A DNA stretch of 64,000 bases, taken from assembly GCA_003248315.1 (NCBI GenBank), contig QKWM01000004.1, positions 4,151,001-4,215,000 of the forward strand, given 5' to 3'. Under the pieces are notes generated by a model that had not been told where the DNA came from, did not search any database, and saw only the letters and a list, made by a program, of their open reading frames with translations. Both the position numbers and the translations under genes were made by a program. The stretch comes from Streptomyces sp. SW4 (GTDB taxonomy: Bacteria; Actinomycetota; Actinomycetes; Streptomycetales; Streptomycetaceae). Every line of letters begins with the position of its first letter. The stretch's first letter is position 1. Below are positions 3,407 to 24,598 of the stretch, in pieces.

Positions 3407-3503
3407 AACCTCTCGGGGACGTTCCGCCGACGGGCGGGGTGGGTGGCCAAGGCCACGCACCCGCCCGTCGCCGTTCGATCTACCCGTCGGTAGCATCCTG
3501 GCC

Positions 3504-3824
3504 ATGGCAGACACGCAGCAGGTAGACGCGAAGGCCGGACGCGAGGCGGCCCGGCTGGCCCGGCGGATCGGTTCCTTCTCCAAGGCCCACGGCGGCGCCG
3601 AGGGCCAGGTGGCCCACATCGGCCGGCGCGGCGCCCGGATCGTGCTCGTCGGCGAGGACGGCGGCTGGGGCGACCTGGTCGCCTCCTCCTACGACGTCGC
3701 CCGGAAGGCGGTGGACGAGGCCGGGATCACCGTCCACGAGGCCCTCGACGGCGACCTGGCGGCGAAGGTGCGCACGGGTTCCTACGAGTGGAAGAGGATG
3801 GCCGGCCTCCAGATCGGCGGCTGA
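3504..3824 (+). CDS. Small conserved protein of unknown function
   Basis: Intact 106-residue soluble protein without signal peptide or membrane segment. The N-terminus is helical and charged (AGREAARLARRIGSF). A glycine-rich alternating stretch follows (GARIVLVGEDGGWGDLV), then a C-terminal helix and SYEWKRMAG. The ATG at 3504 is preceded only by GTAGCATCCTGGCC, with no good ribosome site, so it may be expressed from a short leader. I recognise no catalytic motif. Its place between ctaB and an amidohydrolase appears, from memory, conserved in Streptomyces. Function unknown. Confidence 0.75.
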   Translation: MADTQQVDAKAGREAARLARRIGSFSKAHGGAEGQVAHIGRRGARIVLVGEDGGWGDLVASSYDVARKAVDEAGITVHEALDGDLAAKVRTGSYEWKRMAGLQIGG

Positions 3825-3939
3825 CCAGGGCGCCCGCCGGGGCGCCGAACCGTGGGCGCGGGCCGACCCGGGCCGGACCGCGACCCGAACGCCGTTCACC
3901 CGTTAGGACGGGTAAGACCGCGTCCCACGGGGAGCCCGG

Positions 3940-5043
3940 ATGATCGAAACGCCGTCCCTGGTGGACCAGTACTGCCACGGCGTGCTGAGAACGGAGCTGG
4001 GCCTCGGCACCTTCGAGGCCCAGCTGGCCCGCACCGAGGGCCCGCCCGCGCCGGGCACCACCCTGTTCGACACCCAGACCGGGTTCGCCGTACGCCGCTG
4101 GTGCCCGCCGCTGCTCGGCCTGGAGCCGCACTGCCCGCCCGCCCGCTATCTCGCCCGCCGCCGCGAGCTGGGCGTCATGGAGGCGGACCGCAGGCTGCTG
4201 CGGGGCAGCGGCATCACCACCTACCTGGTCGACACGGGCCTGCCCGGCGACCTCACCGGCCCGCGGAGATGGCCGCCGCCTCGGACGCCGACGCGCACGA
4301 GATCGTCCGCCTGGAACTCCTCGCCGAGCAGGTCGCCGACACCTCCGGCACCGTCGAGTCCTTCCTCGCCAACCTCGCCGAGGCCGTGCACGGCGCCGCG
4401 ACCCATGCCGTCGCCTTCACCTCCGTCGCCGGCGTCCGGCACGGCCTCGCCCTCGCCCCGAACCGCCGGGCCCCGGCGAGGTGCGCGGCGCGGCCGGCCG
4501 CTGGCTCGCCGGACGCGAGGTCGGCGGCGAGCTGAGCGACCCGGTGCTCCTGCGCCACCTGCTGTGGATCGCCGTCGCCTCCGGGCTGCCGCTCCAGCTC
4601 CACGCGGGGCTCGGCGAGCCCGGCCTGCGCATCGACCGCACCGACCCGGTCCTGCTCACCGACTTCGTCCGGGCCACCGCCGGCCTCGGCACCGACCTGA
4701 TCCTGCTGCACGGCTACCCGTACCACCGGCACGCCGCCCACCTCGCCGGCGTCTTCCCGCACGTCTACGCCGACTCCGGGCCGCCCTGGTCCGCACCGGC
4801 GCCCGCGCGGCGACGGTCCTCGCGGAGATCCTGGAGCTGGCCCCGTTCGGCAAGATCCTCTTCTCCAGCGGCGCCCGCGGCCTGCCCGAACTCCACGTCG
4901 TGGGCGCCCGCCTGTTCCGCGAGGCCCTCGGCCGGGTCCTCGGCACCTGGGTCGCCGAGGGAGCCTGGTCCCTGGACGACGCCCAACGGGTGGCCGCCAT
5001 GATCGCCTCGGGCAACGCGAGCAGGGTGTACGGGCTGGACTGA
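3940..5043 (+). CDS. Amidohydrolase-family protein (FluG N-terminal-domain type)
   Basis: About 368 residues once three lost bases are restored. It resembles the metal-dependent TIM-barrel Amidohydro_2 group found alone or fused to glutamine-synthetase-like domains in FluG. Visible signs are DQYCHGVLRTEL at the N-terminus (metal-site region), LPLQLHAGLGEPG in the middle, LILLHGYPYHRHAAHLA, and the C-terminal block KILFSSGARGLPELHV followed by GNASRVYGLD. The start at 3940 has GGGGAG six bases upstream. Frame breaks are near 4255 (GGCCCCGCGGAG), 4460 (GCCCCCGAA) and 4784 (GGGCCCGCC), each one C short. Substrate unknown; hydrolysis of a cyclic amide or a decarboxylation are both possible for the family. 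Confidence 0.75.
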   Translation: MIETPSLVDQYCHGVLRTELGLGTFEAQLARTEGPPAPGTTLFDTQTGFAVRRWCPPLLGLEPHCPPARYLARRRELGVMEADRRLLRGSGITTYLVDTGLPGDLTGPRRWPPPRTPTRTRSSAWNSSPSRSPTPPAPSSPSSPTSPRPCTAPRPMPSPSPPSPASGTASPSPRTAGPRRGARRGRPLARRTRGRRRAERPGAPAPPAVDRRRLRAAAPAPRGARRARPAHRPHRPGPAHRLRPGHRRPRHRPDPAARLPVPPARRPPRRRLPARLRRLRAALVRTGARAATVLAEILELAPFGKILFSSGARGLPELHVVGARLFREALGRVLGTWVAEGAWSLDDAQRVAAMIASGNASRVYGLD

Positions 5044-19825: not shown

Positions 19826-20730
19826 TCAGGCGGCCGTCAGCCGGTCGTACACCGCGCGCAGCGCGGCCGTCGTGCGGTGGTCGGCCGGGCGCAGCGGGGC
19901 GCGGACCGGGCCCGCGGGGTGGCCCAGGCCGGCGAGGAGGGCCTTGGCCGTGACCGTCCCCGGCAGGCCCGACGCCGTCATCGCCTCGATCAGCTCGACG
20001 GCGCGCAGCTGGAGCCGGGCCGCCTGCGCGGTGCGGCCCGCCTCGAAGGCGTCCAGGACGGCGCGGACGTGCTCCGGTACGACGTTCGCCACCGTGCTCA
20101 CACAGCCCGCGCCGCCCGTGGCGTACAGCGCGAGCGCGTGCTCGTCGCAGCCGGCGTAGTACGCCAGGTCCGTGCGGGCCAGCACGCGCTGGGCGCCGAG
20201 GGTGTCGTAGGAGCAGTCCTTCACGGCCACGATCCCGGGTGCTCGGCGAGGCGCACCATAGTGTCCGGTGCGATGCGGACGCCGGTGCGGCCCGGGATGT
20301 CGTAGAGCATCAGCGGCAGGCCGGACGCCTCCGCGACCTCCAGGAAGTGCGCCTCCAGGGCGTCCTGCGGGGGCCTGCTGTAGTACGGCGCCACCACCAG
20401 GAGCCCGTCGGCGCCGGACTTCCGCGCGGACAGCGCCAGTTCCACGGTGTGCCGGGTGTCGGCGGTGCCCACGCCGGCCACGAGCGGCGTGCCCTCGCCG
20501 ACCGCGTCGCGCACCGCCGCGATCAGCGCCGCCTTCTCGGTGTCCGTCGTCGTCGGGGACTCGCCCGTCGTGCCGGACAGGACCAGCCCGTCGCAGCCGC
20601 GCCGCACCAGGTCGGCGGCGAGGCGCCGGGCCCCGTCGAGATCCAGGGCTCCCTCCGGGGTGAACGGCGTGATCATCGCGCAGAGGACGCGGCCGAAGGG
20701 GGCGGCGGGCCGGGGGCTGTGTGGGGTCAT
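19826..20730 (-). CDS. dapA: 4-Hydroxy-tetrahydrodipicolinate synthase-type enzyme
   Basis: About 302 residues of the DHDPS/NAL aldolase family. It keeps the canonical DapA residues: LSGTTGESPT (GTTGE loop), Y143 in MLYDIPGRTG and the Schiff-base lysine K171 in VAVKDCS, seen only after correcting one lost G near 20237. True DapA condenses pyruvate with aspartate semialdehyde. The pattern YDIPGRTG with GTTGESPT fits DapA better than sugar-acid lyases. It is one of three DHDPS-fold genes in this window and the only one with these residues. Streptomyces usually have more than one dapA, so this could be the minor copy. Start taken at ATG 20730; GTG 20766 is possible. Confidence 0.82.
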
Positions 20731-20920
20731 GGGAGTAGTGTCGGCAGCTCCACGGTGAAGCACCACTTAATTCTTCTTAGGGTTGTCGTTAAGCGTTGCT
20801 GATCTGCGGTGGTCGGGCGACGGGGCGTCGCCCGGGTCGCGGCCCCCGGCGAGCGGGCAGGGTAGCGCCGGTCCCGCCGGGGTACCCGGGCGTTCCGAAC
20901 CCGAGAGGAGGCGGAACACC

Positions 20921-21342
20921 GTGACCGGGACCATGGACACCAGGCCGCCCGTGCGCGACGAGCACCACTCCGTGGGTGAACTCGTCGGGCAGGCCACCGA
21001 ACAGCTCTCCCGGCTCGTGCGGCAGGAAGTGGCCCTCGCCAAGGCGGAGCTGGCCGCCAAGGGACGGCGCGCGGGGCGCGGCGGCGGGATGCTCGGTGCC
21101 GCGGGCGCCATCGCCTACGTCGGCCTGATCGCCCTCGCCGGAACGGCCACCGCCGCACTCTCGCTGGCGCTGCCCGTCTGGGCCGCGGCACTCATCGTGA
21201 CGGCGGTGCTCTTCCTGGTCGCGGGCCTGCTGGCCCTGGCCGGCCGCTCGCAGTTGCGCCGTGCCGCACCCCCACGCCCGAGGAGACCCTCGGCAGCGTC
21301 AGGGCCGACGTGGAGGAGATCAGGGAAAGGGCGCATCGATGA
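20921..21342 (+). CDS. Actinobacterial holin-X (DUF1469) family membrane protein
   Basis: About 141 residues. A soluble N-terminal helix (VGELVGQATEQLSRLVRQEVALAKAELAAKG) precedes two close transmembrane helices (AAGAIAYVGLIALAGTATAALSLALP and WAAALIVTAVLFLVAGLLALAG). A charged tail ending VRADVEEIRERAHR follows. The GTG at 20921 follows GGAGGCGG. The frame breaks near 21272, where GCACCCCCCACG has lost a C. Despite the family name, this is not phage DNA. The gene pairs with a DUF3618 gene (ATGA overlap) as in many actinobacteria, where the pair is thought to act at the envelope. Confidence 0.82.
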
Positions 21343-21887
21343 CGGACGCGACGAGTGGGGCGAGCGGCGACGGCACGCGGGGTTCCGCCGCGGAGCCGGC
21401 TGCCACCGGCGGGGCCAAGGGCCCCGACGAGCTGCGGCGGCAGATCGAGCAGACCCGCAGCGAGCTCGGCGACACGGTCGAGGAGCTGGCCGGCAAGGCG
21501 GACGTGAAGGGCCGCGCCAAGGCCCGAGCCGCCGACCTCAAGGACAAGGCCGGCGCGCTGACCGTGCAGCTGAGGAGTTCCGCCGCGCACGCCGGGCACA
21601 GTGTGCAGGACCGGGCCGGCCGGGCCGGCCACGTGGTCCAGGAGAAGGCCCACGTGGTCCAGGAGAAGGCCCATGTGCTGCAGGAGAAGGCGGGCCGCTC
21701 GGGACAGGGCGGCCGGCACAAGGCGGGCCGGACGGGGCACGCCGTCGAGCACGACGCGCCCGGCCCGGTGCACAGCGCGGCCCGTCCGGGGCGCGGGCGT
21801 CCCGGCCCGGTGCTCGTCGCCGGCGCCGCCGCGGGCGCCGTCGTCGCGGCCGGGGTGATCTGGCGGCGGCGCCACGGCCACCACTGA
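21339..21887 (+). CDS. DUF3618 family envelope protein
   Basis: Intact 182-residue protein. The DUF3618 motif PDELRRQIEQTRSELGDTVEELAGKADVKGRAKARA begins near residue 27. It forms a long amphipathic helix. A repeat of seven-residue units follows (HVVQEKA twice, then HVLQEKA), then a Gly/His/Arg-rich stretch and one C-terminal membrane helix (VLVAGAAAGAVVAAGVIW) with a basic tail. The start overlaps the holin-X stop. The repeat section is longer than I would expect for the family and its length may vary among strains. Confidence 0.82.
   Translation: MTDATSGASGDGTRGSAAEPAATGGAKGPDELRRQIEQTRSELGDTVEELAGKADVKGRAKARAADLKDKAGALTVQLRSSAAHAGHSVQDRAGRAGHVVQEKAHVVQEKAHVLQEKAGRSGQGGRHKAGRTGHAVEHDAPGPVHSAARPGRGRPGPVLVAGAAAGAVVAAGVIWRRRHGHH
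21630..21692. repeat. Three 21-base tandem repeats inside the DUF3618 gene
   Basis: In-frame units of CACGTGGTCCAGGAGAAGG plus two bases. The first two are identical and the third diverged. They encode the HVVQEKA heptads. Because they are in frame, unit number could change without breaking the gene. Confidence 0.85.
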
Positions 21888-21905
21888 GCCGGGCCGCACG
21901 CCGAC

Positions 21906-21927
21906 GAGGGGCCCCTCGGGGCCCCTC
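21906..21927 (+). terminator. Terminator after the holin-X/DUF3618 pair
   Basis: GAGGGGCCCC at 21906-21915 and GGGGCCCCTC at 21918-21927 form a perfect stem with a two-base spacer, about 20 bases after the stop codon. Confidence 0.75.
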
Positions 21928-21996
21928 TGCCGTGCCGTTCGCCGGGTCGTCGGGGCTGTCGTCCGCCCGTCGTGGCCCTCGCACGGAAAACGGGAC

Positions 21997-22020
21997 TTGA
22001 CCTCAAGCAAGGTCGAGGTC
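21997..22020 (+). promoter_or_regulatory. SoxR/MerR-type promoter box of the monooxygenase gene
   Basis: The -35 element TTGACC (21997-22002) runs into CCTCAAGCAAGGTCGAGG (22001-22018), an inverted repeat (GACCTC/GAGGTC at the ends). It differs little from the SoxR box pattern CCTCAA-n6-TTGAGG. MerR-family activators bind such sites in stretched promoter spacers. The monooxygenase ATG is about 45 bases downstream. Confidence 0.6.
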
Positions 22021-22066
22021 CGAGGGTGGTGCGTGCACCCGACGACCACCGACCGTGGAGGCCGGC

Positions 22067-22753
22067 ATGACCCGCCGTACCGACGCACACCCCGATCTCG
22101 CCCGCCCGGACGCCGAAGCCCCGTTCTTCAGCACCTGGGACGTCGGCACCCCCGAACGGCAGCGGCAGACCGTGGAGGCGATCGCCCGCACCTGGGTGAG
22201 CCGCCCCTGGCCGGCCCGCGGGCTGAAGAGCTACCACGTCTACACCGGGCACGACGGCCGCACGCTCATGCACCACTCGCAGTGGGCCGACGAACAGGCC
22301 TACGAGGCCTTCGTCAAGACCCACCGCCAGGAACGCAACGACGAGATCGACACCGCGGTGCCCGGCATCCGGCGCCTCGGCCTCGACCGCTACCGGTACC
22401 ACCGCAGCCACGAGCGCGCCGCCGGGGACGACCGCACCGCCGGACTGATCGCGGCCGTGCGGATCGACTTCGCCCCCGAGGCGGCCGATCGGCGCGCCGA
22501 CTGGATCGACCTCGTGCTGAAGGGCCTCGCCGAGGACCCGGACGGCCATCGCGAGCTGATCGCCGCCCACTTCCACCTGAGCACCGACGGCGGTCACGTC
22601 CTCAACTACGCCGAGTGGACCGACGCCGGCGCCTACGACCGGGCACTGGCCGCGCCGACGACCGCGGCGTGGGAGCAGGTCCGTGCCTTCCCGGGCCTGC
22701 GGGGCACCGCCGTCGGCCGCTACGAGCACGCCCTCGGCCTCGTGCCCGGATGA
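22067..22753 (+). CDS. Antibiotic biosynthesis monooxygenase (ABM) domain protein
   Basis: Intact 228-residue protein with two ABM/dimeric alpha-beta barrel halves. The first is FFSTWDVGTPERQRQTVEAIARTW ending HSQWADEQAYEAFVKTH. The second is AVRIDFAPEAADRRADWIDLVLKGL ending NYAEWTDAGAYDRALA. The family comprises cofactor-free quinol or polyketide monooxygenases. The ATG at 22067 follows GGAGGCCGGC. The SoxR-like promoter suggests induction by redox-cycling compounds such as quinones. I recall that the S. coelicolor SoxR regulon includes a monooxygenase of this kind. It is transcribed toward the secreted nuclease gene. Confidence 0.85.
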   Translation: MTRRTDAHPDLARPDAEAPFFSTWDVGTPERQRQTVEAIARTWVSRPWPARGLKSYHVYTGHDGRTLMHHSQWADEQAYEAFVKTHRQERNDEIDTAVPGIRRLGLDRYRYHRSHERAAGDDRTAGLIAAVRIDFAPEAADRRADWIDLVLKGLAEDPDGHRELIAAHFHLSTDGGHVLNYAEWTDAGAYDRALAAPTTAAWEQVRAFPGLRGTAVGRYEHALGLVPG

Positions 22754-22775
22754 CCCGCTCCTACGCGGCACCGGG

Positions 22776-24598
22776 TCACGGACGGAACCGGAGCACCTGC
22801 GGGTCGTGGTCGCTGATCTGGTCGTGGAACTCCGCGTTGATGTGCACGCTGTCGTACGAGAGGTCCCCGCCGCGCCGGATCGACGGGCTGACCAGGATCT
22901 GGTCGAGGACCTGGCTGTTGCCCTGGTAGACGTACGAGTACCGCTCGCTCGCCGGCAGCGACCTGACCGCCGACCACAGCGCGCCGCCGTCCTCCAGCAG
23001 CCGCGTCGTCGTGGAGAACTCGAAGTCGTTGATGTCGCCGAGGGCGATGACGTCCGCGTTCTTCTGGACGCCGAGGATCTCCTTGACGAACGCGTTCACG
23101 GACGCCGCCTGGAGGTGCCGCTGTTCCTCCGACGACCGAGCCGGCGGCTGGTACTGGGAGGTCAGGGGCTGGTCGCCGCCCTTGGAGGCGAAGTGGTTGG
23201 CGATCACGATGACCGTCCGGCCGCGGAAGACGAACTCGCCGGCGAGCGGCTTGCGGCTGTTCTCCCAGGCCGCGTTCCCCGGATCCACCCGGCCGGGGGA
23301 GGCCGTCAGGGCCGCCTTGCCGCGCACCTCGGTCACCCCGGTGGCCGTGGTCGCGTCGCCGCCCGGACGGTCGGTGAACGAGACCCGCTCCGGGTCGAAC
23401 AGGAACACGGTGCGGATGTTGCCGCCGGGCTGGCCGCCGTCGGCCTTGTCGGCCGGGTCGATCCCGCGCCAGTCGTAGCGGGGGCCGCCGGCCGCGACGA
23501 TCGCGTCGATCAGCTTGCGCATCGTCTCGTCCGCGGCCACCGTGCCGTCGTCCTTCGCGCCACTGTTGTCCTGGATCTCCTCCAGGGACACGATGTCCGG
23601 CGAGGAGAGGTTGTCCACGATCGCGGCGGCGTGCGCGGCGAAGGTGTCGTCGGACGGGTCGAGGTTCTCGACGTTGTACGTCGCCACCGCCAGTTCGCCG
23701 CGCCGCTGCTCGCGGGTCCGCTCGCGCTCCAGGCCGCCGCTCTCCAGCGTGCCCAGCTCGTTCGCGACCAGCGTGTAGCCGCCGTACTGGTTGAAGTCCA
23801 GCGGGCCGGAGGTGGTGCCGGCGAGGGTGTCGCCGACGTGCGCGTCGGGGAAGTCGGCGGCCTTGCCGAGGGACTGGATCTGCAGCCGGCCGGTGTTCTG
23901 GGAGTCGTAGGCGCCGTAGACGGTGCCGCCGCGGCGGTTGCGGTTCTCCCACGGCTTCACCGTCACCCACAGCTCGGTGTACGGGTCGGTGGCGCCCACC
24001 ACGCGGGTGTCGGCGACCTCGACGGTCATGCCCTCCAGCGACTCGTAGTAGTCCAGGGCGTAGGTGCGGGGGCGCAGCGGCAGGTGGTTGACCGAGCCGT
24101 TCGCGGCCGGGTCCCCGGCGGGGCGTAGGCGGGCGGCACCGACCAGGAGCGCACGGGCGTGGCGGCCGGGACCGGGTTGCCGCTGGAGACCACCGTCACC
24201 GTCGGGCGGGTGATCTCGGTCAGCGACTGGTTCCCGGACGAGGTGCCGCCGGGCACGTACTCGGTCACGGTGCCCGAGACGGTCACCGCGTCACCCACCG
24301 CGACCTTCGGCGTGGAGCCGGTGAACACGAAGACGCCCTCGCTGGTCGCGGGGTCGGCGTCCGGCGCCGGGTCCTGGATCCAGAAGCCCCGGGAGGAGCC
24401 GTAGGTGCGCACGCCGGTGACGATTCCGGCCACGTCCTGGACCTGCCGGCCGGCGTACGGGGATATCCGGGTCGTGCCCTGGATGTCGTGGACGCGCACG
24501 GAGTCCGCGTGCGCGGGCGAGGCGAGGACGACGGTGGACGCGCAGCTGACGGCGGCGACGGTGAGCGCGGCGAGGCGCGCGGAGGACTTGCTCGGCAA
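22776..24598 (-). CDS. Secreted endonuclease/exonuclease/phosphatase-family nuclease
   Basis: About 608 residues, exported. The TTG start at 24598 follows GGAGGGATTTTCCG. A signal peptide (ARLAALTVAAVSCASTVVLASPAHA) precedes an OB-fold-like region (ISPYAGRQVQDVAGIVTGVRTYGSSRGFWIQDP) similar to ExeM-type extracellular nucleases. The EEP catalytic domain has VATYNVENLDP (Asn), SLEEIQDN (metal Glu), ANHFASKGGD (His), ALGDINDFE (Asp/Asn) and the final SDHDPQV (Asp-His pair). One lost C near 24121 (TACGCCCCCGCC) breaks the frame between the two domains. Likely role: degradation of extracellular DNA for nutrients. The substrate range is not proven. Confidence 0.87.

Follow-up and report, generated by a model that had tools for sequence, protein, structure and literature searches.

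A very likely SoxR-activated promoter upstream of a two-domain ABM-family monooxygenase gene in Streptomyces sp. SW4

In Streptomyces sp. SW4, a gene coding for a two-domain monooxygenase of the ABM family is very likely driven by a SoxR-activated promoter, and would thus represent the counterpart of the SoxR-ecaB (SCO1909) system of S. coelicolor (PMC4146615). The sequence basis of this reading consists of the box, its spacing and conservation, the presence of SoxR and the companion genes, from which we infer SoxR binding, activation and the substrate of the enzyme in SW4. The first-pass annotation had proposed the gene as a distal member of the SoxR regulon. This is borne out, since the genome encodes a SoxR scoring above the profile cut-off and carries six boxes of the same type, four of them on kinds of genes that are known as SoxR targets (PMC4146615), and since the homologues of the gene keep the box and in three acidobacterial loci lie beside soxR itself.

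The window, i.e. the whole stretch of 64,000 nucleotides that was analysed, corresponds to G000:C1:4151001-4215000 of a 7.5 Mb genome assembled in 4 contigs with 83.4% completeness. The elements of the promoter and the gene behind it are as follows.

21997..22002, plus strand: -35 element TTGACC, from the sequence; among the 73 homologous loci, 65 have TTGA abutting the best box
22001..22018, plus strand: SoxR box CCTCAAGCAAGGTCGAGG, left arm perfect, right arm with 2 changes, from the sequence and its conservation
22022..22027, plus strand: -10-like element GAGGGT, 19 nt after the -35 element (overlong spacer of the MerR type), from the sequence
22057..22061, plus strand: Shine-Dalgarno-like GGAGG, from the sequence
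22067..22753, plus strand: two-domain ABM (PF03992) monooxygenase of 228 aa with the ATG at 22067, a putative ecaB-type SoxR target

The sequence and coordinates of the box and of TTGACC, as well as the overlap of the two, stand as they were first noted. The box had also been described as differing by a single base from the arms of the SoxR consensus, which has to be corrected: in comparison with the standard consensus CCTCAAG-N4-CTTGAGG, 2 of the 14 arm positions of CCTCAAGCAAGGTCGAGG differ, and a single difference results only if the right arm is scored without its innermost position (pattern CCTCAAGN5TTGAGG). The box is asymmetric, its right arm being GTCGAGG. Together with the 19-nt spacer between TTGACC and GAGGGT, which is as in promoters of the MerR family, this gives a SoxR box overlapping the -35/-10 region of a promoter with an overlong spacer. 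A sigma-70 scan of positions 21880-22100 with spacers of 16-18 nt detected no promoter, and none was found in shuffled sequences either.

Activators of the MerR family, SoxR among them, work by underwinding the spacer: with the protein oxidised, both promoter elements become usable by the polymerase. In SW4, a SoxR dimer would sit on the box between the -35 and -10 elements, whose spacing of 19 nt would be too long for normal use by the polymerase. A redox-active metabolite, either endogenous or supplied by neighbours, would oxidise the [2Fe-2S] cluster of SoxR; the oxidised protein would distort the DNA and align the -35 with the -10 element, and the ABM gene would be switched on. The enzyme would then probably oxidise or otherwise modify the quinone-like inducer.

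The start of the ABM ORF is best placed at ATG 22067, five nucleotides past GGAGG, and the same start methionine is found in several homologues (e.g. L163, L164, L165, L167). The nearest named homologous loci belong to Streptomyces. The PF03992 profile matches the deduced protein with 32.9 bits (cut-off 23.1) in two stretches, in agreement with the two-domain architecture proposed at first, and the search against NCBIfam assigned no family to it. The C-terminal half shows similarity to ActVA-Orf6 (PDB 1lq9, E 6.1e-5). In the C-terminal domain, the candidate motif N180-x3-W184-x5-Y190 is conserved to different degrees (N in 71/73, W in 72/72 and Y in 49/73 rows of the alignment), and so is H69-x3-W73-x5-Y79 of the N-terminal domain (H in 68/73, W in 72/73 and Y in 65/73 rows). 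The N-x3-W-x5-Y stretch presumably comprises the catalytic, or active-site, residues of ActVA-Orf6. On the grounds of kinship to this protein it is plausible that the ABM enzyme acts on redox-active metabolites. As to its surroundings (window 20221-24029), the gene is preceded by a DapA-like and a DUF3618-like gene and followed by a nuclease gene, DUF3618 being what we take to be the family name of the upstream neighbour protein. These neighbours are recurrent in Streptomyces, a nuclease match being present in 51, DapA in 39 and the DUF3618-like protein in 39 of the 73 loci, and the same order of genes is presumably found in S. coelicolor at SCO1908-SCO1912.

A single SoxR scores above the curated cut-off in the genome (TIGR01950, 235.5 bits, cut-off 116.9). 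It carries the C-x2-C-x-C-x5-C motif (CIGCGCLSLDTC) of [2Fe-2S] cysteines and is encoded at G000:C1:4405348-4405767, about 190 kb beyond the window. Hence the remark of the first-pass annotation that no soxR lies within the window holds true. The search for MerR domains, in which 150 of 303 candidates were scored, listed 20 matches in the genome, none of them inside the window, and a local regulator of the MerR family was rejected on this ground and because the MerR-family genes found near the homologues are all soxR.

The pattern TTGACCTCRASNNNNSTYGAGGT, which comprises the box, the -35 element and outer bases, has 6 exact matches in the 7.5 Mb genome, as opposed to 0 for its reversed control, the pattern having been drawn up after five of its six sites were known. 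The sites precede the following genes.

Exact box 1, C1:2520015: zinc-type oxidoreductase, PF00107/PF08240
Exact box 2, C1:3497052: FMN reductase, PF03358 in a second frame
Exact box 3: the ABM gene of the window
Exact box 4, C2:295442: transketolase N-terminal protein, PF00456
Exact box 5, C2:398808: ABC transporter, PF00664, which exceeds its cut-off in a second frame
Exact box 6, C1:3564465: 136-aa protein

Four of the six boxes (L022-L025) have one perfect arm, CCTCAAG, and one degenerate arm, CCTCGAC or CCTCAAC, in either orientation. The ABM monooxygenase, the zinc-type oxidoreductase, the FMN reductase and the ABC transporter are all of the kinds known as SoxR targets in S. coelicolor, where the regulon includes an ABC transporter (SCO7008), a monooxygenase (SCO1909, ecaB), a flavoprotein reductase (SCO2478), an oxidoreductase (SCO4266), an epimerase (SCO1178) and a quinone oxidoreductase (SCO0320ext) (PMC4146615). 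According to the same source, SoxR binds the five targets described earlier and its binding to the sixth was demonstrated, with values near 5-10 nM for S. coelicolor targets. A transketolase of S. avermitilis also carries a SoxR box, and the regulon was surveyed in 55 Streptomyces species (PMC4146615). Because of its box and of companion genes of the S. coelicolor kinds (PMC4146615), together with the type of the enzyme, the ABM gene of the window is very probably the ecaB of SW4.

Two of the genes behind these boxes, those for the FMN reductase and the ABC transporter (L022, L118), switch reading frame, and the DapA-like gene of the window (19826-20766) is apparently split over two ORFs. Given an assembly of 83.4% completeness in 4 contigs, all three look like assembly indels, real pseudogenes being a conceivable alternative.

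Upstream of the homologues of the ABM gene, a box scoring at least 11 of 14 arm positions was found in 57 of 73 loci versus 2 of 811 control stretches taken from the same loci, the scored stretch beginning 300 nt upstream of the gene and ending 30 nt within it. The second set, drawn from 19 other whole genomes and partly overlapping the first, comprises 23 matches, of which nine scored below 11 and 14 at least 11, a score reached by 0 of 136 controls; at least three of its promoter stretches (L164, L166, L174) recur from the first set, where they are listed as L047, L090 and L096. Since homologous loci are related by descent, one must bear in mind that these counts are not independent trials. 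In the 65 loci of the first set that have TTGA immediately 5' of the best box, aligned with the window (66 promoters in all), the mean information amounts to 1.47 bits per column from TTGA through the box, in comparison with 0.23 bits upstream and 0.31 bits beyond +32, and the second base A and the sixth base T of the -10-like hexamer are invariant (66/66). The 16 loci of the first set with a score below 11 fall into eight with TTGA before a weaker box (L055, L092, L096, L099, L101, L103, L104, L107) and eight without TTGA. The latter include L068, which is cut short, L089, which is masked, L108, L111 and L112, which are partial protein matches, and L093, L106 and L109, where the scored upstream stretch contains no box.

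In three of three acidobacterial metagenome-assembled loci (L105, L107 and L110, around 3430-4030), soxR divergently adjoins a relative of the ABM gene. The SoxR proteins score above the cut-off (190.9-194.4 bits), the ABM relatives exhibit 33-37% identity, and the box-like sequence between the two genes reaches arm scores of 11, 9 and 11 of 14, respectively. In Streptomyces cacaoi (L106), soxR is located about 2.6 kb from the ABM relative, yet the ABM gene has no box. In one Streptomyces genome, a partial ABM match has a second SoxR-family gene above the cut-off at a distance of about 0.9 kb (G023:C2:449562-451299).

Among 61 genomes, an exact box occurs in 31 of the 40 with SoxR above the cut-off (the remaining nine have no exact box pattern) versus 0 of the 21 without, and an ABM match (E <=1e-10) in 20 of 40 versus 0 of 21, co-occurrence being confounded by genus, as 20 of the 21 SoxR-negative genomes come from outside it. 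Inside the genus, G008 is the only one of 37 genomes with no SoxR above the cut-off, and box and ABM match are absent from it as well.

The gene behind the sixth exact box encodes a protein that has no match in Pfam, in NCBIfam (over the cut-off) or in PDB.

G000:C1:3564043-3564450, minus strand: 136-aa protein, with a SoxR-type box 15 nt before the ATG (L115/L186, 3564043-3564487)

Of 120 further Streptomyces genomes that were sampled, 5 have homologues of this protein. In all six of the genes, that of SW4 included, the best box is located exactly 15 nt before the ATG and scores 10-13 of 14, two of the six scoring only 10, a value also attained by 2 of 30 control stretches. As the box lies 15 nt before the ATG, which places AUG at the expected start of transcription, the sequence suggests that the message is leaderless. 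Titles and the opening lines of abstracts yielded no report of a leaderless SoxR target in Streptomyces. The 136-aa protein is missing from the six-gene list of S. coelicolor targets given in the accessible text of PMC4146615. It is fairly probable that the SoxR regulon of this Streptomyces group extends beyond this list to a 136-aa member with a leaderless transcript, and that the pairing of SoxR with ABM enzymes is old, reaching Acidobacteria in the form of a divergent pair.

Could the box be no more than a chance palindrome lying on an ordinary promoter? In the window alone, the loose SoxR consensus with up to 3 mismatches occurs once versus 2.04 matches expected, which is not significant, and a match would thus be expected by chance. 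Nor does the loose pattern, when up to 2 mismatches are allowed, show any excess genome-wide, where 14 forward and 16 reverse sites face 25 and 24 of the control. The genomic sites with 0 or 1 mismatch are the site of the window and four sites before genes of the SoxR-target kind. What speaks against a chance palindrome is that the box is kept upstream of the homologues far above the level of the control stretches, with sharp limits towards weakly conserved flanks, and with the 19-nt spacing to the A-x3-T of the -10-like element constant in 66 of 66 aligned promoters. Conservation at the homologues outweighs loose-pattern counts at the control level; a chance box was accordingly rejected and is considered extremely improbable.

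Activation through the same box by another member of the MerR family would account for the overlong spacer and the palindromic arms, which are common to promoters of this family, and the genome offers candidates among its 20 listed MerR-domain matches; moreover, the two deviating positions set the box apart from the symmetric SoxR consensus. The company that the box keeps points to SoxR instead. Boxes of the same type stand before four genes, ABM included, whose kinds figure among the SoxR targets of S. coelicolor, and before a transketolase, the S. avermitilis counterpart of which has a box too (PMC4146615). In addition, four MerR-family genes were found in the DNA available for the 73 ABM loci, and all of them are soxR (three acidobacterial and that of S. 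cacaoi L106). A different MerR-family activator thus seems quite unlikely, and SoxR is retained as the preferred regulator.

These results provide comparative support for a distal monooxygenase within the SoxR response of Streptomyces to redox-active metabolites. The gene set (ABM monooxygenase, oxidoreductase, FMN reductase, ABC transporter, transketolase and 136-aa protein) may help to find enzymes by which such metabolites are modified or exported. Two items, the 136-aa gene and the soxR-ABM pair of Acidobacteria, extend the known regulon in a small way. SoxR control of an ABM monooxygenase is already known, SCO1909/ecaB of S. coelicolor being the published case (PMC4146615), and the promoter in the window is a further instance of the published regulon, real but ordinary.

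The closest known system is ecaB (SCO1909) of S. coelicolor, which likewise encodes an ActVA-Orf6-like monooxygenase and has a SoxR box in its promoter; the resemblance extends to the ABC transporter, FMN reductase and oxidoreductase that accompany it in the SW4 genome (PMC4146615). Unlike the S. coelicolor regulon as described in the accessible text of that source, SW4 has boxes on the transketolase and the 136-aa protein as well, whereas an epimerase of the ecaC kind is absent behind the six exact boxes. PA2274 of Pseudomonas aeruginosa is also a SoxR-regulated monooxygenase and has been described as resembling SCO1909 (PMC4146615), but it belongs to another phylum and has phenazines as inducers. 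ActVA-Orf6 itself is an enzyme of the actinorhodin pathway (PMC4146615). Its alignment with the C-terminal half of the SW4 protein spans the N-x3-W-x5-Y stretch; however, 1lq9 is a chain of 112 residues whereas the SW4 protein has two ABM stretches, the N-terminal one with H in place of N.
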